Shown here in pieces: positions 4,997-25,381 of a DNA stretch of 29,742 nt. The notes below the pieces were generated by a model. It had not been told where the DNA came from. It was given only the letters and a program-made list of their open reading frames with translations, and ran no database searches. The translations under genes and the position numbers were made by a program. Origin of the DNA: Candidatus Aenigmatarchaeota archaeon (GTDB lineage: Archaea; Aenigmatarchaeota; Aenigmatarchaeia; QMZS01); the NCBI GenBank assembly GCA_016932615.1, contig JAFGCN010000008.1, positions 1 through 29,742 on the forward strand, written 5' to 3'. Numbering within the stretch: position 1 is the stretch's first letter; the number at the start of each line of letters is the position of its first letter.

Positions 4997-5005
4997 CAGA
5001 TTAGT

Positions 5006-6175: not shown

Positions 6176-6210
6176 TAAAATTTGGCATTGACCTTGGCAT
6201 ATCCGGGAGC

Positions 6211-7656: not shown

Positions 7657-7677
7657 AAAAACTTAAAGCCAAACTAT

Positions 7678-8418: not shown

Positions 8419-8433
8419 AAATTAGCTTTGCTT

Positions 8434-8444
8434 GATATATATAC
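8434..8444 (-). promoter_or_regulatory. TATA-like box upstream of coiled-coil/protease operon
   Basis: GATATATATAC on the plus strand (GTATATATATC on the minus strand), centred about 21 bp before the ATG at 8418. Archaeal transcription usually starts about 25 bp after the TATA centre, which would put the RNA 5' end at or next to the start codon, so a leaderless transcript is likely. Just upstream (8455-8465) lies the small inverted repeat GGAGAAACTCC, a possible operator or part of the end of the preceding gene. Confidence 0.6.
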
Positions 8445-8488
8445 GATACTTCTTGGAGAAACTCCTTTCTAATGGGTTCTGTGAGGAT

Positions 8489-8815
8489 TTAAGCTTCTTT
8501 CTGTTTGCGGAATATGTGGGGTATCCGGCCGTTTGTGGAGGATCTTTTCAGGTAAATCAAATATCCCAGCGTCGCCAGGGCAAGGTTTAGTATTGCGACG
8601 TTAAGCAGGTTGATTTTTATGCCTAAAAGGAAGTTTGCATGGAAGACGAGTAGCGGGAGGGTTGCAATGGACAGGCCGAAGCTTAGCGCAATCCTTTCTA
8701 TCCAGTCAATTTCTCCCCTTTTTGGAAAGAAAGCAAAGCTTAGCGAGAGGCCAGGCATGAAAAGAATGAAGGCTGAGGCAACTATCATTCTTGCCGCTTC
8801 CAGGGCTTCTATCAT
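8489..8815 (-). CDS. DUF1616-like small membrane protein
   Basis: A 108-residue membrane protein with three predicted helices. The central block with PGLSLSFAFFP, IDWIERIALSFGLSIATLPL resembles the DUF1616 family of archaeal membrane proteins, where an acidic, IERIALS-like stretch follows the first helix. Known members are usually much longer with extra helices and an external domain, so this looks like a minimal or truncated form; it ends in a basic tail (HIFRKQKEA). It begins 3 bp after the stop of the GT-C-like gene and is the last gene of the flippase operon, which implies a part in envelope glycan work. Function of the family is not established. Confidence 0.65.
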   Translation of the reverse strand: MIEALEAARMIVASAFILFMPGLSLSFAFFPKRGEIDWIERIALSFGLSIATLPLLVFHANFLLGIKINLLNVAILNLALATLGYLIYLKRSSTNGRIPHIFRKQKEA

Positions 8816-8818
8816 AAT

Positions 8819-10420
8819 TTAGCCAGCGTGCCTATAAAGTATTCCTCCCTCATCTTCATAGGCTATTTCGAAGCAGTCGCCTCTGAATTTCTGCATATTT
8901 ATCGCTGAGCTTGAGGGGTGCTTTCCCACGAAGACATAAAGTGGCTTGGGATATACTTCCATGAGGGCAGATATTTCAGAGCAGTTTCCCGCAGCCCAGA
9001 ACTGCCTCCATTGGTTTTCATTCCATAAGTCCTGGTCAAACTGCCCCGGGGCTATGGTGATTCTTTTTGAATAGCCCAGAACCCATGGAGAGTAGGCGCT
9101 TGCAGTGGCCATGACGGAAGCGTTCTCTTCGGTGAAATTTGGTATTTTCTTTATGCTTTCAAGCTGAGTTTCATTTATCAGGGGCTCAAGTTCTGAAGAA
9201 AGGGTCGTGGTGGAAACCGCTCCTGAAAGGATTATCAGGATAACCAGCCCAAGCCGTAAATTTCCGGAAATGCTTTTGGAGTAAAATATTCCCTGGGCAA
9301 GGCCGAAGCCCGCCAGCAATATTGCTGCGATATCCAGGCTTATTATGAGGCGGTTGAAGAAAAACAGCTTAAGGGCTACAACAAGGCCGTTTATTATAAA
9401 CAGCAGGAAAGGGGGGTTGAAATTTTTCTGCCTTAGCAAAACAAGAAACCCAAGAAGGGCAAAAGGAAGGATTGCCAGTGAGATATACTGGTAGGTGAAC
9501 AGGTTATAAAAGGTGCCTGACCCTATGCTTCCCGGATATATAACACTTTCAAGAACCTTTTGGGAAGGGGCTAATACCAGTTCACTGAGCCGTTGGTGAT
9601 AGGTTACTAATAGCACAATACCTGTGGCCGCTAAGCCAAGGAGCCCATTGAGGAATATTTTATTATCCCTGAAGCTTGTGATTGTGTATGCCACCCAGAC
9701 CAGGGCCAGCATAAGGAAAGTTGGCTGGTGCAAAAAGCCCGTTGCTGACGCAAAAAGTATGGCTGGAACCTGGCCTTTTTTTCCGTCAAGAAAGTAAAAG
9801 GCAAAAAGCATTGTGCTTAGGGCAAGAATGTTCCTGTAGTATAGATACCAAAAGGCGTTAAGCTGTGTGAGCGAAATCGAAAACATTATGGCTGAGAATA
9901 TTCCCGCTTCAAGCCCAAAATACTTTTTTGAAACAAGGTAGACTGGGAGGACAGTGATTGCGGAGAGGAATATGTAGACTGGAATAATGAACTGCCCACT
10001 ACTAACTCCAAAAAGATAGAACTGGTCTGCCATCACGGCAATGCCTGAGGGAAACCCGGATTTTATCCACAAGTCAAGGCTTTTTTCAGGAATGCTGGGA
10101 AGACTCTCTTGGAACATGTCAAAGACATACTTGTATATGCCGGCGTCATACCCAAGTGGGACTGAGTTGTCGATGTATGGAAGAGTTCTGACGAAAATGG
10201 CAAAAAGAAGAGCAGTGATGACAAGGAATTGCACTGTCTTTGATGACAACCTGAAGCTTCTCTTTTCGCTGATGGCAAACAGGCCTAGCACGGCAATTAT
10301 TACTGCGAAAAAGTCGAGCTTTAGGGAATACTTCCACAAGAGGCCTGCGCTTACCGCAAGTGTGACTAGCAGGTAGATTGCCAGCAGGTGAAAGAAACTG
10401 CTTTTCAGAACTGATTTCAT
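8819..10420 (-). CDS. polytopic GT-C-like membrane glycosyltransferase
   Basis: A 533-residue protein with about 11-12 predicted membrane helices and a C-terminal external domain of about 110 residues. After the second or third helix lies an acidic external loop, YIDNSVPLGYDAGIYKYVFD (82-101), whose Asp residues match the catalytic-loop pattern of GT-C enzymes that use lipid-phosphate sugars. The C-terminal domain holds YSPWVLGYSKR, loosely placed like the WWDYG region of oligosaccharyltransferases, but the motif itself is absent, so calling it AglB is not justified. It sits 4 bp after the flippase gene and 3 bp before the DUF1616 gene. Likely role: adding a sugar on the outer membrane face to a lipid-linked glycan or surface protein. 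Confidence 0.68.
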   Translation of the reverse strand: MKSVLKSSFFHLLAIYLLVTLAVSAGLLWKYSLKLDFFAVIIAVLGLFAISEKRSFRLSSKTVQFLVITALLFAIFVRTLPYIDNSVPLGYDAGIYKYVFDMFQESLPSIPEKSLDLWIKSGFPSGIAVMADQFYLFGVSSGQFIIPVYIFLSAITVLPVYLVSKKYFGLEAGIFSAIMFSISLTQLNAFWYLYYRNILALSTMLFAFYFLDGKKGQVPAILFASATGFLHQPTFLMLALVWVAYTITSFRDNKIFLNGLLGLAATGIVLLVTYHQRLSELVLAPSQKVLESVIYPGSIGSGTFYNLFTYQYISLAILPFALLGFLVLLRQKNFNPPFLLFIINGLVVALKLFFFNRLIISLDIAAILLAGFGLAQGIFYSKSISGNLRLGLVILIILSGAVSTTTLSSELEPLINETQLESIKKIPNFTEENASVMATASAYSPWVLGYSKRITIAPGQFDQDLWNENQWRQFWAAGNCSEISALMEVYPKPLYVFVGKHPSSSAINMQKFRGDCFEIAYEDEGGILYRHAG

Positions 10421-10424
10421 AAGA

Positions 10425-11891
10425 TTATTTCCTGTATAGCTTAATTCCCATCAGTAAAGACCTTGCTTTTCCCGGCATGGCGTTGTAAATCCGGGAAAAG
10501 TCTTTTTCCGTTATTTCCCTTGTAGCCAAAAGGACCAGGAGGTAGATTGCTCCAAGGATTAAGTATTCGGCAGGCAAAAGCCACTTGCTGGTGACAGCCA
10601 GGAAAGGCGAAGCGGCAACCATAATGCCAGACGCAAGGAGGACTCTTAGGATGCTTGACCAACTGATAAAATTTCCCAGATTTTTTATCGAAAAGGCGCA
10701 GATGGCGATGGTCCCAAGAATGCAGGCAATGGTTGTCGCATATGCAGCTCCATTGAGGCCATAGAAGGGTATAAGCAGCCTGTTGAGGATTATGCTGAGC
10801 AGGCCAAGCGATAATGAGATTGCCATGGGAAGTTTTGTCTTGCCGATAGCCATCAGGCAGCTTGCCAGGACCGAGAAGATTGTCAGAAATGCAAATCCCA
10901 CTGAGAGTATTCTCAACGGTTCGCTGGCTTCAAGGTAAGTCCCGGTATAGAGGAGAGATATAAGCACAGGGCTTGTAACGATTATCAGGGCTGTCGCAGG
11001 CGTTATGAGGATGATGAGATACCTTGCCGCTTCCTTAAGGTAGGTCTTTGCCCTCTTTTTTTCGCCATTTGAATAAAACATTGAGATGGCTGGGAATAAG
11101 GCAACTCCAATCGCGCAGAGGATGCTGTATGGAAGGCGCGCGATAGTTGTTGCGGCGTTATAATACCCAGTCTCCGCGACGCTTCCTAAAATGGAATTGA
11201 CCGAGAAAAGGTCAACACTGATGAGAAAGTTGAGCGCCACTGTGTAAAGAATAACGGGCCAGGCAAAATCAGCAAGGATTTTCCAGTCAAGGTCCACTTT
11301 GCTTTTTCCCTGGGAAATATATAATCCTACAAGAAATGCGAGGATTGGGGCAAAAGCAAACCCTATGAATGCCCCTCCAACTGAAAAGCCCAGGACGACA
11401 AATCCTACCATGAAGAATGTCTTTACGAAGGAATACAGTGTCTGTATACCTGCCTGTGCCTTGTATTTTCCAAGGCCATTGAAGTATCCAGTGATAACTG
11501 AGTAGAGAGAGTAGCCTATCATTATGAATCCTGAGAGCCGGATGTAGTAGGCAAGAGAGGAATCACCCAAAAGAACCGCGAAAGTCCCAGACAGGACTTC
11601 GTAAGCCACGAAAAGAACTGCAGAGAAGGCAAGCTGGAGGTTTATCGCCGCTTTCTTGACTGCCTCTGGATCCTCCCCCGCCGATATGTGCTTGGAAACT
11701 GCTTGGTAGATTCCCGAAGTGAGTACGAGATTGAAGATGGTAATTAGAGAGACCACCACTCCGTAAATTCCATATGAAACTGGTCCAAGAAGCCTTGCAA
11801 GGGCAAAGTGTATCAAGTAGCCCGTGACCATGAAGATGAATGTGGAGGCCATCAGGTAAAAGCTCCCCTTTGACACAGACTTAAGGTCCAT
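10425..11891 (-). CDS. Wzx-like oligosaccharide flippase (MOP superfamily)
   Basis: A 488-residue protein with about 14 predicted helices. The N-terminal signature (GSFYLMASTFIFMVTGY, then LARLLGPVSYGIYGVV) and the middle segment around residues 240-300 (GYYNAATTIARLPY) are typical of polysaccharide biosynthesis/RfbX-Wzx proteins. These flip lipid-linked oligosaccharides across the membrane. Length and topology match the family, and the sequence is complete. It leads a three-gene minus-strand unit with the GT-C-like and DUF1616 genes. Substrate specificity cannot be read off; the neighbouring epimerase, GT2 and methyltransferase suggest the exported glycan contains an N-acetylated and possibly methylated sugar. 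Confidence 0.9.
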   Translation of the reverse strand: MDLKSVSKGSFYLMASTFIFMVTGYLIHFALARLLGPVSYGIYGVVVSLITIFNLVLTSGIYQAVSKHISAGEDPEAVKKAAINLQLAFSAVLFVAYEVLSGTFAVLLGDSSLAYYIRLSGFIMIGYSLYSVITGYFNGLGKYKAQAGIQTLYSFVKTFFMVGFVVLGFSVGGAFIGFAFAPILAFLVGLYISQGKSKVDLDWKILADFAWPVILYTVALNFLISVDLFSVNSILGSVAETGYYNAATTIARLPYSILCAIGVALFPAISMFYSNGEKKRAKTYLKEAARYLIILITPATALIIVTSPVLISLLYTGTYLEASEPLRILSVGFAFLTIFSVLASCLMAIGKTKLPMAISLSLGLLSIILNRLLIPFYGLNGAAYATTIACILGTIAICAFSIKNLGNFISWSSILRVLLASGIMVAASPFLAVTSKWLLPAEYLILGAIYLLVLLATREITEKDFSRIYNAMPGKARSLLMGIKLYRK

Positions 11892-11930
11892 AAAAATACT
11901 GGGGAAACGATTTAGGGTTTGCCTTGACTT

Positions 11931-12484
11931 TTAGTTGGGAGGTAGTTCTTTTAAATGGGTTTTGCATCTTTTAGAGGAACTTTCCTTTTTGCATATCCAG
12001 TCTGAAATTTTTTCACCCCTAAGCCTTGCAGTGGTGAGCTTTCCGCCAACAACACTAAGAAAATTTTTCGGGCTTTCGTAACTTTCAAAATCTCGTGAAA
12101 TCTCTCTTCCGGCATCAGTAGTTCCCAGTCTTAAAAGAGGCATTATGCCAATGATAGTCTTAATCGTTCCTTGGTCTTTGATTACTGGAAGTATATCAGA
12201 AAAGCCGGAAATTAGATAAAATTCCACATTGGCTTCTGGCTTTGCCTCTTCAGGGAGTTTATCTTTGTGGAAGTTGTGCCTAGCCAACCTTGGCCATTAT
12301 GGACAATATAAGCATCAGCGTCAGTTGGAGCTCTTAAATACTGCAGCCCTCTAGGGGAGAGAGCCTGCTGGACAATAATAGTTCCCTGGCTGTAGTGCAT
12401 TGGGATGTCAGTACCTACTTTATTAGCAACATGATTTACCCGGAAGCTTATGTTAATTATCGTTAATGCCCATGCTCTTGGCAT
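11931..12484 (-). pseudogene. FAD-dependent glycerol-3-phosphate dehydrogenase remnant, frameshifted and truncated
   Basis: Two overlapping minus-strand frames make up one family. The upstream frame (12484-12212) reads FRVNHVANKVGTDIPMHYSQ, LSPRGLQYLRAPTDADAYIV and WLGTTSTKI. The downstream frame (12287-11931) continues with LPEEAKPEANVEFYL, IIGIMPLLRL and SVVGGKLTTARLRGEKISDW. The last is the well-known C-terminal flavin-domain block of GlpA/GlpD-type enzymes. The frames join between about 12240 and 12265 by a shift equal to loss of one base. The N-terminal FAD-binding Rossmann part is gone (the adjacent gene ends at 12490), and the expected GPW of the GPWVN segment is degenerate. It fills the gap between two glycan genes and shares no function with them. 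A sequencing indel could explain the shift but not the missing half. Confidence 0.8.
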
Positions 12485-12489
12485 GTAGT

Positions 12490-14106
12490 TTACTTTGGAA
12501 GGTTTATGTCATAGACCACCACTTGACTACTTTCATAGGTCTTGTTGAGCCTGCCAGACTCTTCAAGGAACATTGTTTGGTTTGCCCTTAGTGCCTTATA
12601 TCCGCTTTGCCATTTTGCAAGAACCAGCGAAGTAAGATTATATTCATTTGCAAATTTGTCAAAGCCACTAAGATTTTTTTCCATGAATGCAGCGTAACCC
12701 GAATTTATCCTTATTGACTCGGGATTATCTTCCACATAGTCTATATATTTCCTTTCGCCAACATATATTTTTTTGTCTAGGTAGTATGCAAACTCGTATG
12801 CCCTGTTGCTGAGCGCGTTGCCTTCTGGGAGGATTATGCTTTTTACATCATCTGTCATTTGCTTGTTTTTTTCAAAACGCAGGTAAGTGTTTTGCGCGAG
12901 AGGGAAGCTTGAAATAAGAAATACTACGACTACAAGCGCAGAAATAATTGCCAGAAGCCTGTGTGAAATAAATGATTTTGCCTTGTCAAGGCTTACGGCT
13001 GTAAATATGAGTATGAGCAGCAGTATAAGAAAGTTAGAATTCATGAAGTAGAACCATATAGCTCCTCCTAGCTTTAGGAATCCGAGAATTGAGAGTAATA
13101 TGGTTGCTAAGATGGATATCAGGAGAAGCTCAAGCCTTTTCCTAAGAAGAACAAGAAGGGAAAAAGCAATTAGGGCCAAGATCATTGCGCCCTGGATAGG
13201 AAGGCCCATTTGCCGTGGGTCAGACAGGTTATCATATATCTCGTTTAGGTCTTCACTCTGCACTTCTTCCGAGGAATAGCCTTCCGGAGTTATATCCGTC
13301 TTATAATAGACTGCCGTTTTTGGAACGTCAAATAAATTGAGTTCCATTTTGTCTATTACCGGAACTTTTTGCGTGGGGTTTCCTAGAAGGCTGCCTGTGC
13401 TTTCAAACATTGCTAGATAAAAAGGAGCGCAAAGCACCGCCAATATAAGCCATAACCCAAGAAGTAGATTTACATTTTTCAAGCCTCTTCGGGAAATAAT
13501 GTATAAGGATATCAAGCCGAGAAGAGGAATCACAAGTAGTCCTATCTGCTTGAACGCAATCATTGCAGCTCCAAAAATGAACATTAGACCAAGAGGACGA
13601 TTGGAATATTTTTTTGTATCGGCAAGATATGCAAGGTAGATTATGAACAAACCAAATAGCCACCAGAAAGTTTCCATCTTGTATCTAAGTATTGCGTAAA
13701 AGAAAGCGCTTCCAAGAAAAAGAACTGAGGTAAGGATGAGAGCAATCAACTGGGAATAACCCTTTAATTTTAGGATTTTTTCAATCAGTGACCAGACAAG
13801 GAACAGGTATGTGAGCGATGCAAAAAAGATTATGGCTTTATTGAAATTATCTCCAATAAAAATAAGTCCTATGGAATTCATTACAATGTATCCTTGAGGG
13901 TATAATACTGGTCTGCCGCTGTTTATGTCTTCTGTTTCGTAAACTATTTTCTGTTCTTTTAGCATCTGATGAGAAATGATGCCATAATAAGAGCTGTCAG
14001 ATGCCAACTCATTTATGCTTGCAAAGGCACCAACAATAAGAATCACAATCAAAGATACAAGAAGAATGGCTACCTTGCATATCGATTCTGCTTTTTTTCC
14101 AAGCAT
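12490..14106 (-). CDS. polytopic GT-C/GT39-like membrane glycosyltransferase
   Basis: A 538-residue protein with about 12 membrane helices and an external C-terminal domain of about 130 residues. After the first helix comes the acidic external loop NELASDSSYYGIISHQML (32-49), followed by PVLYPQGY (67-74), the layout of dolichyl-phosphate-sugar dependent GT-C enzymes (GT39/ArnT-like) with Asp37 as the likely catalytic or metal residue. The region 245-300 forms an external insertion rich in Glu and Asp. It follows the methyltransferase gene after 51 bp in the same direction. It probably transfers a sugar outside the membrane; donor and acceptor are unknown. A paralogue-like gene lies at 8819-10420, but the two are not close in sequence. 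Confidence 0.7.
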   Translation of the reverse strand: MLGKKAESICKVAILLVSLIVILIVGAFASINELASDSSYYGIISHQMLKEQKIVYETEDINSGRPVLYPQGYIVMNSIGLIFIGDNFNKAIIFFASLTYLFLVWSLIEKILKLKGYSQLIALILTSVLFLGSAFFYAILRYKMETFWWLFGLFIIYLAYLADTKKYSNRPLGLMFIFGAAMIAFKQIGLLVIPLLGLISLYIISRRGLKNVNLLLGLWLILAVLCAPFYLAMFESTGSLLGNPTQKVPVIDKMELNLFDVPKTAVYYKTDITPEGYSSEEVQSEDLNEIYDNLSDPRQMGLPIQGAMILALIAFSLLVLLRKRLELLLISILATILLSILGFLKLGGAIWFYFMNSNFLILLLILIFTAVSLDKAKSFISHRLLAIISALVVVVFLISSFPLAQNTYLRFEKNKQMTDDVKSIILPEGNALSNRAYEFAYYLDKKIYVGERKYIDYVEDNPESIRINSGYAAFMEKNLSGFDKFANEYNLTSLVLAKWQSGYKALRANQTMFLEESGRLNKTYESSQVVVYDINLPK

Positions 14107-14157
14107 ATACTAATTTGGATTCATATGATTACCTCCCTTAGCAAGTTTACTTTTTCA

Positions 14158-14943
14158 TTAACTTTTTTCTACAATCGTCACCAAAAAATAACCCTCTCTT
14201 TTGTTAAGTGGATTTGCAAGCTTGCTGGCAAGTTCAAACCCAAGTATCCACATGTTTTGAAGAGCTTTGTTCCTGAAATGGTATTTGCCATACTGAAACT
14301 GCGTCCAATACCCAATAGAATATTCCTTTACAGGATATTTTTTTTCAATCAGGCCGTTCAGGGTTTCAAACGGACTTTCGTAACCGGCCTGCCAGATTCC
14401 CTTATTCTCTGCAATGCTTTTCATCTTAAGATAATATTTTCCGCAAACGCAGGGGTTGAAAAGAACCACAAACCCTCCGGGCCTTGCTATCCTGACCATC
14501 TCGCTTATTGCTTTTTTCTGCTGCTCGCGCTTAAAATGCTCAATTACTCCTGCGTTCCACACAAGATCAAAGCTATTGCTCTTCAAAGGAAGGCTCATTA
14601 TTGATGCCTGTATAAACTGAGCTTTCAGCCCATAGAGATTTTTCTTTGATAGGTCTATGGCCTCTGGAGAAATGTCTATCAGGGTAACATTTGCCCCGTT
14701 TTTTGCGAGCTGTTTTGATATCAGTCCGGTTCCTGAGCCGCACTCGGCAATATTTTTTCCTTGGAGATTACTTTGGCAGATGCCAAGGAGATTATCAAAA
14801 ATCAGCTTGCTTGAGTTTGGTAGCGGAAATAGCCGGAAAAACGCTTTTTCCAGTTTTTGGTTTAGCTTTGTTGATCTATTATGACCTCTCCAGATCCCAT
14901 CCCAGTTTTCTGAAACCTCTTTAAGATGCCGGTCCATATTCAT
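14158..14943 (-). CDS. SAM-dependent class I methyltransferase
   Basis: 261 residues with a Rossmann-type methyltransferase core at about 60-170. Motif I is NIAECGSGTG (64-73), the ribose-binding acidic residue is Asp90 in VTLIDIS, motif III-like is QASIMSLPL, and motif IV is DLVWNAGVIEHF (126-137), followed by ARPGGFVVLF. This matches the Methyltransf_11 type acting on small molecules or glycans. Its start overlaps the end of the epimerase gene by 4 bp (ATGA), so it is translationally coupled to it. By context it probably methylates a sugar or lipid-linked intermediate. The C-terminal 80 residues (Tyr/Lys-rich) may recognise the acceptor. Confidence 0.85.
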   Translation of the reverse strand: MNMDRHLKEVSENWDGIWRGHNRSTKLNQKLEKAFFRLFPLPNSSKLIFDNLLGICQSNLQGKNIAECGSGTGLISKQLAKNGANVTLIDISPEAIDLSKKNLYGLKAQFIQASIMSLPLKSNSFDLVWNAGVIEHFKREQQKKAISEMVRIARPGGFVVLFNPCVCGKYYLKMKSIAENKGIWQAGYESPFETLNGLIEKKYPVKEYSIGYWTQFQYGKYHFRNKALQNMWILGFELASKLANPLNKREGYFLVTIVEKS

Positions 14944-16016
14944 TTAAAATCCGCTATTGCATTGACAATAATCTTTGATGGGCTTTTCTTGCAATGGTTT
15001 TTTACTTGCTTGAATGAGTGGTAATTTTTGACAAAGTCCATAAGTACATTGCGGTTGTAATTTGAAATTACCGTATTCTTTCCGAGCCCTTCAAACCTCT
15101 CGGTCTTGCTTCTCATGAGAAGGCAGGGCTTTCCAAGGTAGGAGCATTCCTCCTGGTTGCTTCCTCCATCGGTTATGACAAACTCGGCATTCCAGACAAG
15201 CTTTATGAACCTGAAATAATCATAGCGCGGCCTTAATTCAATGTTTGGATTTTTCTTAATCCTCCCATAAATGCCGTATTTTTTGAGCCTTTCCCTAGTG
15301 GGCTTATGGAGTATGAACAAGAGCCTTATGTTTTTGGACAGCTCTTCCATGCTCCTAACTATCTCATCAAGCCTTTTTTCGCTTGAAATATTTTCATACC
15401 TGTGAATCGAGACGAGGCCATATTTTTCGCCAGGAATGTCCACATTTATCTTATTTTGGTTCCTGACTGCCAACATGAGGGCGTCATAGAGTGTGTTGTG
15501 GCGGGTGTTTATTTTTTTGCCGCCATATTTTTTCGAGTTATTCATCGCGGCTTCATCCTGGCAAAAATGATAGTCAACCATTCTTGAAACAATCCTTCGG
15601 GTTATCTCTTCCGGGAAAGGGTTCCAGATATCGTTTGACCTAAGCCCTGCTTCGACATATCCTACTTTGAGGCCTGACATCTTTGCCATCATCGCGCCTA
15701 AAAGCGCGGAGAAGGCGTCACCATGCACAAGGACAATTCCATTTTTGCTTGGGAATATCTTTTTTTTGTTTCTTGCCGTGTGGACAAGGCATTTTACTGA
15801 CCAGGAGGCCATCTGAAAGACCTGGGTAATGTCTTTTCCTTTATAGAGTGTATAATCCGGCCTTCTAAGGCCAAAAACGTCTATTAGCTCTTTTATGGTT
15901 TCCTTGTGCTGTCCGGTGAAAATAAACCTATATTTGATATTCTGCTTGTTTAGCTCAACCATTATTGGCGCCATTTTTATGAGCTGGGCCTTGCTTCCTA
16001 GGGTAATATAAATCAT
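14940..16016 (-). CDS. UDP-N-acetylglucosamine 2-epimerase (WecB-like)
   Basis: 358 residues of the non-hydrolysing UDP-GlcNAc 2-epimerase fold, which makes UDP-ManNAc for surface glycans. Seen motifs: VHGDAFSALLGAMMA (97-111), YVEAGLRS (120-127), PEEITRR (135-141), SIHRYEN (203-209) and TDGGSNQEE (282-290) with TERFEG (305-310). The catalytic acids and histidine of the family have counterparts at Asp100, Glu122, Glu136 and His205. Two blocks deviate: the N-terminal GTRPEAIKMAP is GSKAQLIKMAP here, and the usual TDSGGxQEE is TDGGSNQEE. These affect the nucleotide-binding edge, so a different UDP-sugar substrate or hydrolysing activity is possible. ATGA overlaps join it to genes on both sides. 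Confidence 0.86.
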   Translation of the reverse strand: MIYITLGSKAQLIKMAPIMVELNKQNIKYRFIFTGQHKETIKELIDVFGLRRPDYTLYKGKDITQVFQMASWSVKCLVHTARNKKKIFPSKNGIVLVHGDAFSALLGAMMAKMSGLKVGYVEAGLRSNDIWNPFPEEITRRIVSRMVDYHFCQDEAAMNNSKKYGGKKINTRHNTLYDALMLAVRNQNKINVDIPGEKYGLVSIHRYENISSEKRLDEIVRSMEELSKNIRLLFILHKPTRERLKKYGIYGRIKKNPNIELRPRYDYFRFIKLVWNAEFVITDGGSNQEECSYLGKPCLLMRSKTERFEGLGKNTVISNYNRNVLMDFVKNYHSFKQVKNHCKKSPSKIIVNAIADFK

Positions 16017-16963
16017 CTTTTTCCGTACCTCTCAAGCTTTTGCCGGTACAAAATATCTTCCTGCAAAATCCGCTGCCTGACAAACATGTCGGCGAGTATA
16101 CCAAATGTTAGGGTGATGAGGGATGTCAGGAAAAGAAATCCGGCGAGCATTGCTGAGCCAAGCACTCCTGTGAAATGCCCGGTCTGCAGGTAGTAAAACA
16201 TGGCCCATGCAAAAGGAAACAATGCCACAATAAATACCGCCAGGGACAGAGCCCCGAAAATAAGGATTGGGTGTGTGTCAGTGTATTTTCTAAGGACTAT
16301 CGAAATTGCCTTGAGGCCGTAGAGGTACCAGGTTTTTACCACTTTTGATTTTCCGGTTTTTCTCTTTTCTGCCACTATTGGTATTTCGGTTATTCTGAAG
16401 CATCCGTTGGCTGCACGTATTATGAACTCCTGAGTGTAAGTGAATTTTCCGAAAAGAACTGTCCTGAGGGCAACCTCCCTGGTGAACGCCCTAAAGCCGC
16501 ATTGTGTGTCGGTCAGGTCTGCCCCGGAGATTTTTCTCGTAAGCCAGGAAAAGAGGAGGTTTCCTGCTTTTTTCATGAAGGGCATTTCAGGGTTCTTGCC
16601 AAGAAACCGTGAGCCAATGACTACGTCGGTTTTTTCTTTGAGAATGGGCTCTATCAGCCGCGGAATGTCCTTTGCGCTGAACTGGCCGTCAGCGTCAGTG
16701 TTTATGATAATGTCTGCGCCCATCTCCAGCGCATTTTCAAGGCCAGTGTTGAAGGCCGAGCCCACACCACGGTTTTTTCTGTGAACCGCTATCCTACTAG
16801 CACCTGCTTTTTTCGCTGCCTTGGCAGTATCATCAGCCGAGCCATCATCTATGACCAAAATTTCAACCTTATCAATGCCTTCAATTTTGCGTGGTATCGC
16901 TCTGATCACTTTTCTAATGGATTCTTCCTCGTTAAACGCAGGAATCATCACTACAAGCTTCAT
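16013..16963 (-). CDS. dolichyl-phosphate sugar transferase, DPM1/AglJ-like GT2
   Basis: 316 residues. The GT-A domain (1-225) has AFNEEES (9-15), IDDGSADD (38-45), the metal-binding DADGQ (90-94), GSRF (117-120) and the acceptor-region block DTQCGFRAF (152-160). Two C-terminal membrane helices (about 234-258 and 268-292) follow. This is the layout of archaeal AglJ/AglK and related enzymes that load the first sugar onto dolichyl phosphate for glycan assembly. The acceptor lipid is inferred from the family. It is the first gene of the unit running down to 14158 and overlaps the epimerase by an ATGA. Its start is only 22 bp from the divergent membrane protein gene, so its promoter must overlap that gene. 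Confidence 0.88.
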   Translation of the reverse strand: MKLVVMIPAFNEEESIRKVIRAIPRKIEGIDKVEILVIDDGSADDTAKAAKKAGASRIAVHRKNRGVGSAFNTGLENALEMGADIIINTDADGQFSAKDIPRLIEPILKEKTDVVIGSRFLGKNPEMPFMKKAGNLLFSWLTRKISGADLTDTQCGFRAFTREVALRTVLFGKFTYTQEFIIRAANGCFRITEIPIVAEKRKTGKSKVVKTWYLYGLKAISIVLRKYTDTHPILIFGALSLAVFIVALFPFAWAMFYYLQTGHFTGVLGSAMLAGFLFLTSLITLTFGILADMFVRQRILQEDILYRQKLERYGKR

Positions 16964-17611: not shown

Positions 17612-19069
17612 ATGATTAAGCTTTTCTTTGCAGACTTTCTGGTCGTGCTGCTTATTTTGTCCCCCGCATTTGCTGACGCATCTCCGATTGACTTTTCCAG
17701 CCCGACGCCAGTGGATGGGTCGATACTAAGGTCAAGCCGAGTGGAGATAAACTCGACCCTGCAGGCGTTTGGCCTTCAGGAACTTACCCTGGAATGGGGA
17801 GGGACAAATTATACTATATATGACGATTCTCTTGTCCTGGCAATGGATTTTGATAATATGTCTGCCTGGGCAGATTTTTCTACTTACGCGAATAATGCCA
17901 CAATCCATAGCGCTTCGTGGACCGATCGGGGAAGATATGGCGGGGCAATGTGGCTTGATGGGGTGGATGATTATCTATCAGAAACGGATGTTGTTAACAC
18001 GACAGGGAGCTGGACTTATTGCGCCTGGGCAAGAAACGACAATGGCAGCATCACTGCTTCAAAGCTTCTTTTCGCAAACAGGCCCTCTCCAAATATCTTC
18101 ATGTTTTACATTGCCAACTCCTCAAACGGCACTCGGCTGAGGGTGGGGTTATGGAATCTCAAGGGAGACTCAGTAACTACTATCATGGGGGGAGAAGTTC
18201 TCCCAGTAGGAGAATATTTTCATGTGTGCTTTGGCTATGATTCCACTGACGGAAACTTTTCCATTTATGTCAACGGAAAGCCGGACGCTTCGCAGAAGTG
18301 GTTGGATATGGCGGACAGCATGACAAACACACTTTATATCGGGTATGGGTATGGCGGCACAGACCGCTACTGGCAGGGTGCGATAGATGAAATAAGAATA
18401 TTCAGCCGCTCCCTTACTGGGGAAGAGATCAGGATGATCTACCAGACAAACCTGAGGAGAATCAATGCAACAGATTGGGGATTTTATGCTAACCTCACAG
18501 ACCTGCCGGACGGGGAATATTCCTTTCGCCTTTGGGCAAGGGACGCTTCAGGCAACATAAGCCAAAGCTTGTTAAGGCACTTTTCAGTTGAGGCAACAAA
18601 TCCGCAGGTCAGTATAGGCCCAGTATCCTTTAAGACCCTTTCAGGAAGGCCGGTTCTTGCAATAATGGTGAATTCGACAGATTTGAGCCTCAATTATACA
18701 CTCATTCAGGCAGCTAATTCCACCGGGGAGATCCTTAATTCTACAGAAGTTACCGAGAACGGAAGTTTCTTGGCGGAGCTGGAAGTTCCCTATGAAAGCC
18801 AGTATATACTGACAGCAACTGCTTATGACTTGGCTGGAAACACAAACCAGAGTACCCGGGTCTACAATATGGATACTCTGGCCACTGGGGACTATTTCCT
18901 GAATGTCCTTTCCAGAAAACCAACTCTAACTATAGGGGGTTTTGCATTAACTTTAGGCATAGCTCTGCTGATTGCAGTTCTGCTCGTCTTTGCCCTCTGG
19001 AAACACAATAAAAAAGGCAGGAAGAAAAAAAAGGAAGCCGTTCTCCAGCTAAGATATACCAACAACTAA
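17612..19069 (+). CDS. LamG/concanavalin-like surface protein with Ig-like domain and C-terminal anchor
   Basis: 485 residues: signal peptide (hydrophobic 3-19, cleavage near AFADA), a LamG-type jelly roll (about 75-275), an Ig-like domain (about 328-420), one membrane helix (about 441-463) and a very basic tail (KKGRKKKKE). LamG hallmarks are FDNMSAWADFS..ANNAT, MWLDGVDDYL (113-122), YFHVCFGYD and the closing AIDEIRIFSRSLTGEEI (257-273). The Ig-like part holds LNYTLIQAANSTG and AYDLAGNTN, which recur in the giant protein at 19271-25381. LamG domains often bind carbohydrate; the ligand here is unknown. Many N-X-S/T sites occur. A purine-rich GAGGA lies about 9 bp before the ATG. It is cotranscribed with the upstream membrane protein gene. 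Confidence 0.85.
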   Translation: MIKLFFADFLVVLLILSPAFADASPIDFSSPTPVDGSILRSSRVEINSTLQAFGLQELTLEWGGTNYTIYDDSLVLAMDFDNMSAWADFSTYANNATIHSASWTDRGRYGGAMWLDGVDDYLSETDVVNTTGSWTYCAWARNDNGSITASKLLFANRPSPNIFMFYIANSSNGTRLRVGLWNLKGDSVTTIMGGEVLPVGEYFHVCFGYDSTDGNFSIYVNGKPDASQKWLDMADSMTNTLYIGYGYGGTDRYWQGAIDEIRIFSRSLTGEEIRMIYQTNLRRINATDWGFYANLTDLPDGEYSFRLWARDASGNISQSLLRHFSVEATNPQVSIGPVSFKTLSGRPVLAIMVNSTDLSLNYTLIQAANSTGEILNSTEVTENGSFLAELEVPYESQYILTATAYDLAGNTNQSTRVYNMDTLATGDYFLNVLSRKPTLTIGGFALTLGIALLIAVLLVFALWKHNKKGRKKKKEAVLQLRYTNN

Positions 19070-19270
19070 TGCCCAATTGTTTGGCGATATTTGGTTTTCA
19101 GGGTTTGGAGGTCATTTGGAAGAGAAATGCTGGGGAATGAAATCTTATCTGATAATGTGGCCTGACCAGCGTTGTTAAGGATAAGAAGTGTCAGAAGAAC
19201 ATCTATTTCAGAAACCAGGCACTATTCTTAGGTATATCTTGTTATTTATATAATACTCCCAAAATTATTG
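19070..19270 (+). promoter_or_regulatory. 200-bp spacer with TATA-like box for the giant surface protein
   Basis: The largest empty gap in this half of the window. No ORF, RNA gene or repeat was found in it. Near its end, TTATTTATATAAT (19242-19254) is a strong TATA-like box, centred about 23 bp before the ATG at 19271. This spacing predicts a transcript starting at or a few bases from the start codon, i.e. leaderless. The gene therefore has its own promoter rather than depending on readthrough from the LamG gene. Confidence 0.6.
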
Positions 19271-22200
19271 ATGGAGAGCTCCTCTTTAAGGAGATCTGGT
19301 ATTGGAAAATTTTTATCTGATAAAGATAATAAGCTAGTTTCTCTGTTTATAAGCATGCTGATTCTGTCAGTTGTTTTGCTTTCGGGCCCTGCAAACGCTA
19401 TATCCATAGGCCTTTATCCAAATGGTGCAAATGGAGGGACATACAATTACCGAATGGTTATAGACCTGCACGCAAATGACCACGTTCCACTTGACTATAT
19501 AGTAATCCACCTGGCAAACCTGAATGAATCTTCAGAAGATACCTGCTACTTTGAGTTTAATACGCTCCAATATGATACTAGCGTAAATGGTGATGTCCAG
19601 CCATGCCACATGATAAATATTACCGGGCTTGTCAACAATGCCACTTATAGCGGCGCTTATGGCTACAGCTTTGGTTATGGCACTTATGGGAACTATTCTA
19701 ACCTTAGTGGGAATAATGTTTCCTGGAATGCTGAAGGTTACAATTTCACGCCAGGGTATGGCTATGATTCATATAACCCTGCAACTTCCATGTCCGGGGA
19801 AATAACTGTGGAATTCAGTATAAACACTATAATTCCTAACGGTCCGACAGCGGGACATGAATTTGCTGTCAGGGCAGGCGTTTCCGGAATGGAGGGAGGC
19901 AGCATAAAATACAGCTTTTACAGCCAAAACGAGGCATTCTTTACAGCTCAGGGCAATATGGGTGGTGGAGGAGATAACTGGAATGATGGCCTTAGCTCAT
20001 GGAGGTCGGGTATCGTTTCGCCTTATGTTCTTATTGGAGGCGAGCCGAAAATGCTTAACTTTACGGTTTATAGGCAGGCAGGTGACCAGTCGTGCCTTGA
20101 AAACCTCACAATACATTTGCCCCATAACTTCACCTACCTTGGGAGCAACTGGACAAACTCTGTGAATTCTTCGGTATCTGCCCGTGAGGGCGCTGTTTTT
20201 TGGGAGGATAACGGGTCGGGGGGCTTTTTCTGCGGCGAGGGTCCGGTTAACTTTGCAATTTTGGTAAACACCTCTGACGGGCTTGGAAAAACTTCTTTCT
20301 TGATAGAGGCATATGCAAAGGATAATACCACAAGTAACTTCAGCAAGATGGTTTTCATTGCAACTACCTTCAACTATACCGGCTCAGTCAAGGATTCAGA
20401 GGGCAATAATCTGTCGGGAGCTGTTGCTTCAATGTACGCAGTTTCCCATAGCATGGATGGCGAAACCGTCATTGGGACATTTACCGGCCTGACTGACGAG
20501 AATGGCGAGTTTATTATCGAGAACGTGCCCGGGATGAATATTTCTTATGAGGAAGAGTATTTCGGGCCAATGGAGATATCTTACCGGCTTAGCGCTGCAA
20601 GATATAATGACAGCGAAGGCAACTATGCAATGCATATCGGCCCTTCCCTCCCAGATGTCCCTGAAATGGAGATTAAGGCCCCTTGGGGTCTTGGTAACGC
20701 AACCATTTACCTTAAGGAAGCTGTAACCTTCCATGTAAGGGCTCTTGGAAAGGACTACCGCTCGGGTCCCAATAATACTAACGAAACCTGCCCTGGACCC
20801 ACCTGCCCTCCGGAATGGACGCCTACCTTCAACCAGACCTATGTTAATTTTGATTATAACCTCAAAGACAAGAAGCTTGGCTACCCGGTCTCAAACAGCC
20901 AGGGCCAGGATTCTAACGAGCGGTGGTTTGCGGCGCCACTTGAGAGGAACTACTCTCTTATGCTTTTCCCTGATGCATCATTCCAGGTTTATGTCGACTT
21001 TGTAGATATTTCCTCTAGGTGCAATTCAACAGGGTATAACCTTAGCACCACAGGGGTGAATGCAACATGCACGATCCAGAACGGCACTTACCTGATAGAT
21101 GCTGAAATTACGGGGGACATGAACCTTACAAACATGACCGGCTCAATTAATCTGACTGATCTTGACTCATTCTGGATAGTTGCATATATGCTTGGGGCTG
21201 GCGAGATGCTCTTTGACCAGGATTCGCTTCCATTCAATATAGGTCAGATGGAAAGGTGGCCAAAGAATGACACCACCTATGACGATTCTTACAACCGGTC
21301 TGCAGGCACATATAACATATACCTTCCTGCAACCCAGGCACATTCAGATGTGCTTCTTGTGGCATATGCTTCAAAATCAGGCACTTATTACCAGGGGATC
21401 CATAAGATCTCTGTAGAGGGAATGGTTCTTCCTGAAACCATTTACAACTTCACAATGCGCGAGCTTATTAGCGGCTCTGATTACCCGATAAGCGTGAATA
21501 ATGTTTCCGGCGACTGGAACTCCACAAATGTTGTAAATACTACTGCCGTGGTTTTCAACCTTGTTGACAGCAACGGTGAGATGCTTGAGACTGAAAGCTC
21601 ATTTATAGAAACCAGGATTGATGCGGGGGAGGCAGAATACCAGAAGATGCTTAATGCTGAGAATGGAAGCTTCAGTATGGTCTTGGCAAGCGGTCAGGGC
21701 CTTGAAAAACTCACAGTTTACTCCCAGACAAGTGCCCCTCTTTCGGTGCCTGTCAGAAGCACGGTATTATCAGGAAGCGAGTCTACGGAATTCATGTCCT
21801 GCCAGAGCGGAGTCTGCAATGTTACCCTGAGGGAGTTTGAGCCGTTTGACCCCGAAACCAAACAGGCGTTGGAGGATATAAAGATGGAATTCATGATATC
21901 AAACTCCTCCTGCGATGTCCCTAATCCATCTGAGGACTGCTACCTAATGTCAGACATGAGCAAGGATGAGTTCTCCCCTCTTAAAGCCATACTTCTTGGA
22001 GACATAAGCCTTAGGATAATATTAGGCAACCTGTCAGTCCACTACATGAAAACAGACCTTATGGCTTCAGGCCCTCCTGACGCGGCATTGTCCCAGAACT
22101 TCACTGGAGATGACCTGAACGCGGCTTGGAAGTTTGGAAGCAGCGGCCCTGAAATCTACTCAGGAGTGCTTATCGGAATGCCTTACTCAGAAGCCTTGGA

Positions 22201-25200
22201 TAACATGAGCATAAGGATGTCAATTCCGGTCCTTTATGATGCGGAGTTTAATGTAATCTGGAACCGAACTGATGGGAACACCACAAGCGAGCTTGTTGGA
22301 ACCGATTACGAGGACTACCTTAATAATTCCTATGAGGAATACCTTAACGGGACAGGAGTTTACTGCTCTGAAGCAAACGAGAACCTGACCGAAGGACTTT
22401 GCTACCGGGATACTTCTACAAGGATGATCTGGATGGAGATACCTCACTTTTCAGGAGTCGGGCCTCAGGTGGTTTCATTTGATCTTCCTTCAGTAGCTCT
22501 TACATTGTCTGACCCGTCTCCCGTAAAGGCCGGAAACGTAACATTTACTGTTGACTTTAGCACGGCGATGAACACCTCCTCAAATGTTTCCGTATTAGTA
22601 AGCAATGCCTCCAGCTATAACGTGACTCCAATAGGATGGGCAAACTCCACAAGATGGACCAGCTGGTATAACTTCAACGCTTCAACTGGAGATGGAGTAT
22701 ACCAGGTTCATATTACCGGGGCAGTGGACTCTGACGGAAACCCAGTTTCAGAGGACTCCTCAAACTACTTCATCCTTGACACGACAAACCCAGCCATTTC
22801 AATTACAAGCCCTATTAACAATTCCGTCAGCAGCACACAGGTTATAGAGATAAATCTTACCCTGACAGAAGCAAACCTCGACTACACAAACATTTCCCTC
22901 ATAAATGCTTCCACGGGCATAGTGGTAAACTCGACAACAAGCACAAGCACAGGAGCTTATAGTGTTTACTTATCTGCTTACGAGGACGGCGCTTACAATA
23001 TCACTGCTGTTTCTTATGATCTGGCAGGAAATACCAACACTGTGACCACCTCAAACATTACTGTCGACGCTGAGGGGCCGAGCATTACGGTAATCTCTCC
23101 TGCAAGCGGGGCTTATCAGAACACTCTTGCAATTTCGGTCAACCTGACAGTAACTGACACCTCCCTGAACTACACAAACGTTTCTGTTTATAATTCAACC
23201 GGGGGGCTTGTTTATTCAAACTCGAGCTCTGCAAATGGAAATTACCTGCTGACCCTTTATGCTTCGGGAGAAGGCGCTTATTATATCACTGCAGTTGCCT
23301 ATGACACGTCAGGAAGGAATAGTTCAGAATCCGTAAACATTACACTTGACATTACGAGCCCTGCCGCAGCAATCTCCAGCATAAATGGCAATGCTTCTGG
23401 AGACTGGACCCGCTCAAGGACTCTTCTTGTGACTGCCACAGCAGGTGACGCCAACATTCAGTCTTGGCTGCTTTCTGCATACAACTCTACTGGAAATTTG
23501 TCTTCATCAGCAAATGGCTCAACCTCATTTGGCCCGTCAGATGTAAGCCTGATTGTGCAAAGAGACGGAAATTACAACGTGACCCTAAACGTTACTGACA
23601 GGGCCGGAAACAGCAATGTCTCTTCATTCACCATAAGGGTTGACGCGACTGCCCCTCACTTGATAACACTTACTCTAAATGCGACAATAGTTAATGTGAA
23701 TGATTCCATTGAGATAACCTGCTCAGCTTTGGATAATGTTGACGCAAATGTCTCCACAGTAAATACCTCAGTAGACACTTCAGCTCCTGGAGTATTCAGG
23801 GTTAACTGCACGGCAACTGACGACGCCGGAAACACAAACACTACCAGCGTTGGCTATGTGGTTTTGGGTGGGTCTGCTGCAATCTTAACGGAGAACGTGA
23901 CCGTGAACTCAACTGAGACAACCCTTGTCGTGCCGGAGTCAAACAATGATACCCACATCAGCGTCCCATCGGACATAACAAATGCCTCAATTGACCTGGG
24001 AATATTGCTTAATGATACCGGAACTGACCGGTATGCAATTCTTAATGGCTCGATTAATGTTTCTGCCAATACCTCAGAAGGCATTGTTGAAGTTTTCATT
24101 CCTGCAAACACTACCATTAATGGAAGCTCTGGGTGGTCTGGCGAGGTTGACCTGCCTGAGATTGCTGCTGATGGTTCTGTCACTGTGACGCCTGACAGTG
24201 GAAAGACCGCGACTGTTTCAAAAGTTGTTGAGCTGGGTTCCGGAAGCGTTCATCTAGTGTTTACAAGGGCAGTGAGGATTCTTATCCCCGGTGAGGCAGG
24301 AAAATACGCCGGATATTACAGGGACGGGACATTTACGAAAATTACTGCCACCTGCGCAAATGATTCACAGGACTCTGGCGACGCGCTTGCCTATGGAAGT
24401 GACTGCAAAATTGACTCTGGAAATGACCTTGTGGTCTGGACAAAGCACTTTACGAGTTTCGTCACATACACTCAGGCAGACTTGCCGGGAAGTCCATCGA
24501 GCGGCCCAAGAAGTTCTTCTGTAACCGGTACGAGTAGTGGGTACTGGTATGGAACCCACACAGTCTCTAAAGAGAGTATGGCTGCCGGTTACACGACAAT
24601 TCTTCGTTACCGGCACCGGCTTAAGCTGAATATCTCTGATGAAGTGCATTATGTTGGGGTTGTGAACACAACAACTGAGATGGCAATTTTGAATGTTTCA
24701 AGTGACCCGATCCAAGTGATTTTGCCCATTGGCGATGATGCAAAGATTGACCTTGATGGCGATTATTACTATGACCTTTACATAAAGCTTAACGGGATAG
24801 AAGCGACGACTACAAATATTACCCTTAAGGAAATCCACGAGTACTTTGGCGCTTCCGGTGGGACTGTTGCAAACACAACTCCGCAGGTACAGCCAGAGGA
24901 GAAGCCGCCAATTTATGGAGGTCCGAAGGTCGATTCTTGCAGGTCAGGTGCGCACAGATGCATTGATAGTGAGTTTCAGGAATGCCGGGCGGGCACTTGG
25001 GTGACAGTAGAGCTTTGCATTGGTGGATGTGATTCTTCGGGCAATGGCTGCGTTTCTGTCAACAGAGCGCCGGAAAGCCAGCCTGCCTGGGGAGCTTTCG
25101 CACTTGTGTTGCTGCTTCTTGCAGTTGCACTAGTGCTGGTGATTTCAAAGCGCCCAAAGGTTTCGGAGAAGCATACTGAGCACCACCCACAGATAACCCA

Positions 25201-25381
25201 TTCAAAGTTTGTAGATGTGCAGGGCAGGATAGCAAAGCTTGAGAGCAAGGGACATAATGTTTCCCGGATGAATGGTATTCTTGAGGAAATTCGCCAGGAC
25301 ATTTCTTCAGGTCTTCACTATATTGCTGAAGGGCGCCTGGAGATTCTTTCAAGGGAAGTTGAGTTCCTTGAGGGTCTTTAA
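19271..25381 (+). CDS. giant multidomain cell-surface protein (adhesin/S-layer-like), 2036 residues
   Basis: The frame opens one codon earlier with TTG, but the ATG at 19271 fits the TATA-like box. Layout: signal peptide with a long charged lead (core 22-39, cleavage after ANA at 43); a Gly/Tyr/Asn-rich beta region (44-265); a beta domain (to about 365); a carboxypeptidase-regulatory-like domain (367-445, VKDSEGNNLSGAV..TDENGEF); a long beta-rich centre; a domain with paired Cys that ends IWMEIPHFSGVGP (970-1065); four or five Ig-like domains (1075-1532); a beta sandwich ending WTKHFTSFVTY (to about 1735); an acidic DLDGDYYYDLY (from 1827) that could bind calcium; a six-Cys module (about 1888-1928); one membrane helix (1938-1959); and a cytosolic helical tail (1960-2036). 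N-X-S/T sites are very dense. Adhesin or S-layer function is inferred from architecture; no single domain proves it. Confidence 0.85.
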   Translation: MESSSLRRSGIGKFLSDKDNKLVSLFISMLILSVVLLSGPANAISIGLYPNGANGGTYNYRMVIDLHANDHVPLDYIVIHLANLNESSEDTCYFEFNTLQYDTSVNGDVQPCHMINITGLVNNATYSGAYGYSFGYGTYGNYSNLSGNNVSWNAEGYNFTPGYGYDSYNPATSMSGEITVEFSINTIIPNGPTAGHEFAVRAGVSGMEGGSIKYSFYSQNEAFFTAQGNMGGGGDNWNDGLSSWRSGIVSPYVLIGGEPKMLNFTVYRQAGDQSCLENLTIHLPHNFTYLGSNWTNSVNSSVSAREGAVFWEDNGSGGFFCGEGPVNFAILVNTSDGLGKTSFLIEAYAKDNTTSNFSKMVFIATTFNYTGSVKDSEGNNLSGAVASMYAVSHSMDGETVIGTFTGLTDENGEFIIENVPGMNISYEEEYFGPMEISYRLSAARYNDSEGNYAMHIGPSLPDVPEMEIKAPWGLGNATIYLKEAVTFHVRALGKDYRSGPNNTNETCPGPTCPPEWTPTFNQTYVNFDYNLKDKKLGYPVSNSQGQDSNERWFAAPLERNYSLMLFPDASFQVYVDFVDISSRCNSTGYNLSTTGVNATCTIQNGTYLIDAEITGDMNLTNMTGSINLTDLDSFWIVAYMLGAGEMLFDQDSLPFNIGQMERWPKNDTTYDDSYNRSAGTYNIYLPATQAHSDVLLVAYASKSGTYYQGIHKISVEGMVLPETIYNFTMRELISGSDYPISVNNVSGDWNSTNVVNTTAVVFNLVDSNGEMLETESSFIETRIDAGEAEYQKMLNAENGSFSMVLASGQGLEKLTVYSQTSAPLSVPVRSTVLSGSESTEFMSCQSGVCNVTLREFEPFDPETKQALEDIKMEFMISNSSCDVPNPSEDCYLMSDMSKDEFSPLKAILLGDISLRIILGNLSVHYMKTDLMASGPPDAALSQNFTGDDLNAAWKFGSSGPEIYSGVLIGMPYSEALDNMSIRMSIPVLYDAEFNVIWNRTDGNTTSELVGTDYEDYLNNSYEEYLNGTGVYCSEANENLTEGLCYRDTSTRMIWMEIPHFSGVGPQVVSFDLPSVALTLSDPSPVKAGNVTFTVDFSTAMNTSSNVSVLVSNASSYNVTPIGWANSTRWTSWYNFNASTGDGVYQVHITGAVDSDGNPVSEDSSNYFILDTTNPAISITSPINNSVSSTQVIEINLTLTEANLDYTNISLINASTGIVVNSTTSTSTGAYSVYLSAYEDGAYNITAVSYDLAGNTNTVTTSNITVDAEGPSITVISPASGAYQNTLAISVNLTVTDTSLNYTNVSVYNSTGGLVYSNSSSANGNYLLTLYASGEGAYYITAVAYDTSGRNSSESVNITLDITSPAAAISSINGNASGDWTRSRTLLVTATAGDANIQSWLLSAYNSTGNLSSSANGSTSFGPSDVSLIVQRDGNYNVTLNVTDRAGNSNVSSFTIRVDATAPHLITLTLNATIVNVNDSIEITCSALDNVDANVSTVNTSVDTSAPGVFRVNCTATDDAGNTNTTSVGYVVLGGSAAILTENVTVNSTETTLVVPESNNDTHISVPSDITNASIDLGILLNDTGTDRYAILNGSINVSANTSEGIVEVFIPANTTINGSSGWSGEVDLPEIAADGSVTVTPDSGKTATVSKVVELGSGSVHLVFTRAVRILIPGEAGKYAGYYRDGTFTKITATCANDSQDSGDALAYGSDCKIDSGNDLVVWTKHFTSFVTYTQADLPGSPSSGPRSSSVTGTSSGYWYGTHTVSKESMAAGYTTILRYRHRLKLNISDEVHYVGVVNTTTEMAILNVSSDPIQVILPIGDDAKIDLDGDYYYDLYIKLNGIEATTTNITLKEIHEYFGASGGTVANTTPQVQPEEKPPIYGGPKVDSCRSGAHRCIDSEFQECRAGTWVTVELCIGGCDSSGNGCVSVNRAPESQPAWGAFALVLLLLAVALVLVISKRPKVSEKHTEHHPQITHSKFVDVQGRIAKLESKGHNVSRMNGILEEIRQDISSGLHYIAEGRLEILSREVEFLEGL
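22787..23868 (+). repeat. tandem Ig-like domain repeats within the giant surface protein
   Basis: Diverged protein-level repeats of about 95 residues. Units begin near 22787, 23078 and 23359, with a more diverged fourth from about 23657. Shared pattern: an opening (N)P-[AS]-I-[ST]-[VI]-xSP, a middle LDYTNISLINAST or LNYTNVSVYNSTG, a GAYNITAVSYDLAGNTN-like close, and a VDxxxP linker. The first two are the most alike; the third keeps NVTDRAGNSN and the fourth TATDDAGNTN. The same module occurs once in the neighbouring LamG protein. No DNA-level tandem identity was obvious, so expansion is old. Confidence 0.8.

Follow-up and report, generated by a model that had tools for sequence, protein, structure and literature searches.

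In adhesion G protein-coupled receptors (GPCRs) such as ADGRL1, ADGRB3 and CD97, a long ectodomain is followed by a membrane-proximal GAIN domain, a β-sandwich with an H-X-S/T triad that in ADGRL1 comprises H836 as the catalytic residue and T838 as the nucleophile (PMC13062082), and then by seven membrane helices. The ZU5 domains of PIDD, NLRP1/CARD8, ankyrin and UNC5b are cytosolic and precede UPA and death domains; PIDD has two such domains and is cut at HF/S behind each of them (PMC3210808). ZU5 domains also occur in surface proteins and polymorphic toxins of bacteria, and a self-processing role within large adhesive surface proteins has been proposed for them (Zhang et al. 2012, PMC3482391). 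Here we compare these systems with P0001, a 2,036-residue protein of a DPANN archaeon (Aenigmatarchaeota; genome of 1.26 Mb in 29 contigs), whose gene lies on one entire contig that was analysed over its full 29,742 nucleotides (the window).

Like the adhesion GPCRs, P0001 has a predicted β-sandwich, here called the HFT domain (residues 1534–1738), which stands close to the membrane after a long ectodomain and holds H-X-S/T at the same structural position. It differs from their GAIN domains in being archaeal, in lacking helical subdomain A and in having Phe rather than Leu at P1, and P0001 is not a member of that receptor class, since one membrane helix (1940–1959) follows where seven would be expected. 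Ankyrin ZU5 is the best fold match, and the two HF/S cut sites of PIDD are paralleled by two HF-S/T candidate sites in P0001; however, in contrast to those cytosolic domains, the HFT domain lies outside the cell, contains conserved Cys and is followed by no recognised UPA. While the self-processing ZU5 set already proposed was reported for bacteria, the set described here is DPANN archaeal and membrane-proximal; we found no archaeal membrane-proximal ZU5/GAIN version in the literature searched.

Our preferred reading, in which we place somewhat more confidence than doubt, is that P0001 is a self-cleaving surface glycoprotein whose ZU5/GAIN-like domain would be cut between F1727 and T1728, yielding outer and membrane fragments held together non-covalently. 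To our knowledge, every DPANN archaeon cultivated so far lives by contact with other cells, and P0001 bears on the question of how DPANN archaea recognise and hold their partners. If the reading is correct, a self-cleaving membrane-proximal ZU5/GAIN-like domain would provide a concrete mechanism for releasable or force-sensing archaeal surface proteins, and the surface of very small archaea would be added to the settings of a fold that is familiar above all from inflammasomes and animal adhesion receptors. With its ~210 residues, the HFT domain is of a size suited to a direct cleavage assay.

The membrane-proximal HFT domain

The original prediction had flagged two sequence blocks, IPHFSG and WTKHFTSF, which end two different β domains, and had missed that both carry the H-F-S/T triad of ZU5/GAIN self-cleavage. 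The ZU5/GAIN hypothesis, based on the resemblance of the HFS and HFT ends to the HF/S self-cleavage motif, was set down before the fold search. Using an AlphaFold2 model of residues 1531–2036 (mean predicted local distance difference test score, pLDDT, of 75), we found that ZU5 and GAIN entries make up nearly all the top rows of the VIA fold comparison for residues 1534–1738 (Z 4.8–8.4): ankyrin ZU5 domains (8.4, 8.1, 7.3, 7.2 and 7.0), the GAIN domains of ADGRB3 (6.8), CD97 (5.8), CELSR1 (5.2) and ADGRL1 (4.8), and UNC5b ZU5 (5.5). The remaining rows are the axonemal chain 9fqr_Hn (Z 5.3) and unrelated proteins with Z of at most 4.7. The most probable Foldseek match is again the GAIN domain of ADGRB3, a weak one (probability 0.41, E 0.08). 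The model thus points to a ZU5/GAIN-type β-sandwich, an assignment at the level of fold only and at modest Z.

The same alignments place the triad. The alignment with ADGRL1 (4dlq) ends at Phe1727 (model residue 197), which is paired there with residue 837, between H836 and T838, so that the triad lies on the known scissile register. If the end of the alignment is ungapped, Phe1727 falls on residue 856 of ADGRB3 (4dlo), adjoining R855, the GPS.-2 position, and, with the same proviso, on residue 677 of UNC5b, which is the equivalent of the CARD8 P1 residue (PMC3210808). H1726, F1727 and T1728 are invariant in all 30 HFT homologues, which were drawn from Aenigmatarchaeota and a second archaeal phylum, and the F three residues past the candidate cut is kept in 29 of them. 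The resulting H-F-T-x-F resembles the HL/T-x-F with which the tethered agonist of adhesion GPCRs starts. Of the 26 copies with a complete C-terminus, 25 have a single membrane helix 80–300 residues beyond the triad. The modelled domain, then, probably carries an H-X-S/T triad at a scissile site. Surface architecture, fold match, position and invariance of the triad, membrane-proximal placement and tail homology were all computed for P0001; the ZU5/GAIN reading draws its weight from four lines that agree, namely fold family, register, invariance and placement, each Z value being modest.

Several observations weigh against self-cleavage. The HFT domain has no sequence match to the ZU5, GAIN or GPS models of Pfam, to NCBIfam or to PDB sequences, and profile searches of PDB sequences with both the IPHFSG and the HFT domain returned chance-level matches only, although strong sequence divergence is a known trait of these families. 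Compared with each other, the two profiles give no global match, and their best local match, a weak one, is the motif itself. The GAIN domain of ADGRB3 is cleavage-resistant (PMC13062082). Individual Z values of 5–8 are modest, the HFT region was modelled at a pLDDT of ~75 from a shallow alignment, and GAIN helical subdomain A is not in the model. The ZU5 domains of ankyrin and UNC5b keep the fold without cutting; together with ADGRB3, they make fold and register no proof of cleavage.

A serious alternative, which we consider appreciably less probable, is that the same architecture forms an intact anchored adhesin, with HFT and HFS triads that are structural and a ZU5-like stalk that never cuts. 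In its favour, the highest Z values are those of ankyrin ZU5, the F, W and Cys conserved near the triad could serve in packing, and no cleavage has been observed. It sits poorly with the presence in every homologue of S or T at the nucleophile position and of the preceding H, as in cleaving ZU5/GAIN domains, whereas ankyrins, which need the fold only, do not keep the triad.

Within the self-cleavage reading, cleavage, adhesion, release and signalling to the tail are inferred. Residues 1534–1738 would fold outside the cell and then cut themselves at the Phe1727–Thr1728 bond through an N–O acyl shift in which His1726 is the base. The outer fragment of ~1,680 residues, comprising all the candidate binding modules, would remain non-covalently bound to a membrane fragment of 309 residues made up of a stalk β domain, the six-Cys module, the membrane helix and a cytosolic three-helix tail. 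Pulling or ligand binding could then release the outer fragment, which would amount either to shedding of the adhesin or to exposure of a new N-terminal strand that reports to the tail. A second cut of this kind may lie in the IPHFSG domain. A role in adhesion and host contact, as originally proposed, would be plausible.

Surface architecture and the IPHFSG domain

In good agreement with the earlier proposal of a secreted, membrane-anchored multidomain protein, P0001 has a signal peptide ending in ANA at about residue 43, a single membrane helix and 24 cysteines, all 24 of which are in the predicted extracellular part. It contains 100 N-X-S/T sequons, about three times the 32 ± 5 of shuffled sequence, and only one of them is in the cytosolic tail, which fits an N-glycosylated ectodomain with a cytosolic tail. 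The genome encodes the STT3/AglB oligosaccharyltransferase, and the window a flippase, two family-2 glycosyltransferases and a UDP-GlcNAc 2-epimerase. These observations support a modular, secreted, heavily N-glycosylatable, single-pass surface protein (Table 1). P0001 does not look like an archaeosortase (PGF-CTERM) substrate: it has no PGF motif and no NCBIfam match, and ends in a 77-residue helical tail.

Table 1. Positions of the features of P0001 in the window
Feature	Position	Strand	Basis
TATA-like box TTATTTATATAA	19242..19253	+	TTTATATA sole exact copy in window
P0001 gene, 2,036-residue surface protein	19271..25381	+	open reading frame including stop
Signal peptide/N-terminal hydrophobic segment, residues 1–43	19271..19399	+	sequence
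N-terminal region 44–215 with Gly/Tyr-rich stretch	19400..19915	+	sequence, homologue searches
Immunoglobulin (Ig)/cohesin-like β-sandwich, residues 245–365	20003..20365	+	structure model, fold comparison
Conserved core, residues 357–1075, ending IPHFSG, common to other archaeal surface proteins	20339..22495	+	homologue comparison
IPHFSG domain, residues 856–1070	21836..22480	+	homologues in 24 named archaeal genomes
His1059-Phe1060/Ser1061, first candidate self-cleavage triad	22445..22453	+	homologue conservation
Tandem Ig-like domains, residues 1071–1530	22481..23860	+	Pfam; also in other surface proteins of genome
Membrane-proximal ZU5/GAIN-like (HFT) domain, residues 1534–1738	23870..24484	+	fold comparison, 30 homologues
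His1726-Phe1727/Thr1728, second candidate self-cleavage triad, on GAIN/ZU5 scissile-site register	24446..24454	+	
Juxtamembrane β domain, residues 1760–1860, partly conserved DxDGD loop 1827–1835	24548..24850	+	
Six-Cys module, residues 1890–1927	24938..25051	+	
Membrane helix, residues 1940–1959 (approx.)	25088..25147	+	structure model
Cytosolic tail, residues 1960–2036, predicted helices 1973–1992, 1998–2012, 2016–2035	25148..25378	+	structure model

Most of the modules named in the original prediction could be located. The Gly/Tyr-rich stretch covers residues 121–175 (35% G+Y versus 14% in the whole protein) and lies within the N-terminal 215 residues, for which no relative was found in the sets searched; in the tandem Ig-like region, three stretches match Pfam Big_13 (E 3.5e-15); and the six-Cys module spans C1890–C1927. 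The proposed carboxypeptidase-regulatory-like fold is weaker, its Pfam match being below threshold (E 0.1), and of the possible calcium loop, the sequence DLDGDYYYD (1827–1835) is there, though conserved only in part among homologues. In the structure model, residues 245–365 match YcnI (Z 14.5), as well as pilin and cohesin domains (Z ~10–11). A match of the juxtamembrane domain to flavivirus E domain I (Z 10.9) was set aside as a common arrangement.

Homologue searches recovered the core 357–1075, or at least its last domain, from 24 named archaeal genomes of Aenigmatarchaeota, Woesearchaeota, Pacearchaeota, Diapherotrites, Thermoplasmata, Hydrothermarchaeum and others, so that both blocks proposed as search targets, IPHFSG here and WTKHFTSF in the HFT homologues, do recur in other archaea, each as the end of a larger domain. 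Downstream of the core the relatives vary, with Ig-like repeats, PGF-pre-PGF-like domains (recognised by eye) or low-complexity stalks. Among IPHFSG homologues the H and F are invariant and P1′ is S or T in all, and the domain ends in the same pattern as the HFT domain: Cys, Asp/Asn, a strand, H-F-S/T and another strand. The fold search with an 860-residue core model was dominated by the first Ig-like domain and mainly tested the first 270 residues, and is uninformative on the IPHFSG domain. A second self-cleavage site here, as in PIDD, is a possibility only.

Since several all-β stretches of the large ectodomain are without assignment, P0001 might instead be an enzyme that is secreted and displayed on the surface, one that degrades glycans or peptides, for instance; we regard this as highly unlikely, as no enzyme family is among its Pfam or NCBIfam matches and the invariant core residues concentrate in the C-terminal domain ending PHFSG. 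The originally suggested S-layer lattice subunit, which the large, glycosylatable, secreted chain and its Ig-like domains would suit, is less credible still, given the many other large Ig-rich surface proteins in the same genome, the scattered relatives of the ectodomain core (not one per relative), the lack of any lattice-protein mark and no hint of high expression beyond the TATA-like box.

The nearest ectodomain relative is in the Aenigmatarchaeota metagenome-assembled genome B56_G9. There, the position equivalent to the HFT domain (L065:3789–6281, minus strand) ends in CYLNTSTNVTLYTPHLSGGG, HL/S and GAIN-like, in place of HF/T, and the region gives a weak profile match to the HFT domain. 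The relative is split by one in-frame TAG (L065:6390–6392, minus strand), on either side of which the frame stays open; the TAG may reflect a sequencing error, decay or readthrough.

The cytosolic tail and its cassette

As originally described, a cytosolic helical tail follows the membrane helix. It is exactly 77 residues long, the longest among the 25 HFT-domain proteins with a measurable tail, and is modelled as three helices with a pLDDT mostly above 88 (88–97). A fold match of the tail to EngBF helices (Z ~9) was set aside as a common arrangement.

The conservation of the tail turned out to be divided. None of the ectodomain relatives seen has it, their own tails being short and mostly basic, but a second family of surface proteins in these archaea does keep it. 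The member of this family is a β-helix (NosD) surface protein of 1,015–1,040 residues (L026:8133–11243), present in the source genome and five relatives. Its C-terminal part consists of the same six-Cys module and membrane helix and then a related tail, while its ectodomain is unrelated and has no HFT domain. With a tail profile built without P0001, the P0001 tail scores 28 bits, whereas the best of 1,000 shuffles reaches 7.6. Judging by these sequences, the cassette of six-Cys module, membrane helix and tail is joined to different ectodomains.

The β-helix tails are themselves similar to the C-terminal hairpin of a giant surface protein that has a HerA-type ATPase in the cytosol: the profile of this hairpin gives 30–38 bits on the β-helix family tails and 1.1 bits, no better than shuffles, on the P0001 tail. 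We therefore claim no direct link between the P0001 tail and the ATPase hairpin, the former being linked to β-helix tails only. An initial view that the tail profile finds giant adhesins was corrected, since most of its matches are the ends of membrane-bound HerA-type ATPases. The giant protein of the source genome (L139:566–9502 on contig C9, 2,978 residues; others at L111–L134 and L143–L159, with open frames of 4,000–11,000 elsewhere) is of a type with an ectodomain of PQQ-propeller or Ig kind, followed by a membrane helix, then a HerA/DUF87-type ATPase in the cytosol and, at the C-terminus, the helical hairpin. Such proteins occur in many genomes of the class, and their genes are often followed by one for a helical partner. 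The same hairpin is found at the N-terminus of a soluble CBS-domain protein (L153), and is thus also used outside surface proteins.

Because a distantly related tail ends the giant HerA-type ATPase protein, a shared cytosolic partner is possible. We consider it a long shot that P0001 is a single-pass archaeal counterpart of adhesion-GPCR mechanics, in which force arising when cells touch would separate the non-covalently held fragments, and either the strand thus exposed or the membrane fragment, once free, would report inward through the three-helix tail, with a cytosolic partner perhaps shared with the giant protein.

The gene and its neighbourhood

The gene is real, as first read: an uninterrupted open reading frame of 2,036 codons from its ATG, with the stop within the coordinates of Table 1 and an in-frame TTG one codon 5′ of the ATG. 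The TATA-like box of its own, also noted originally, is there. TTTATATA, at 19245–19252, has no second exact copy in the window, where ~1.2 copies are expected by chance, and its 3′ end lies 19 bases before the ATG, which suggests a leaderless or near-leaderless transcript.

Upstream, the gene at 17612–19069 encodes a LamG-like domain, the same Ig-like domain as in P0001 and a C-terminal membrane helix, and is probably a second surface protein of this locus. The flippase, glycosyltransferase and epimerase genes lie with a methyltransferase and two large membrane proteins at 821–2062 and 8822–16963, a cluster that likely serves surface glycosylation. Just downstream of P0001, 26485–29686 holds type IV pilus-type genes, for a PilB3-like ATPase and two T2SSF membrane proteins. 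Elsewhere in the genome, MinD/ParA-like ATPase genes are interleaved with genes for large surface proteins (L021:1508–2347 on contig C24; L022:1531–2289 and 4769–5521 on contig C1), an arrangement that suggests a cytosolic positioning system for surface proteins.

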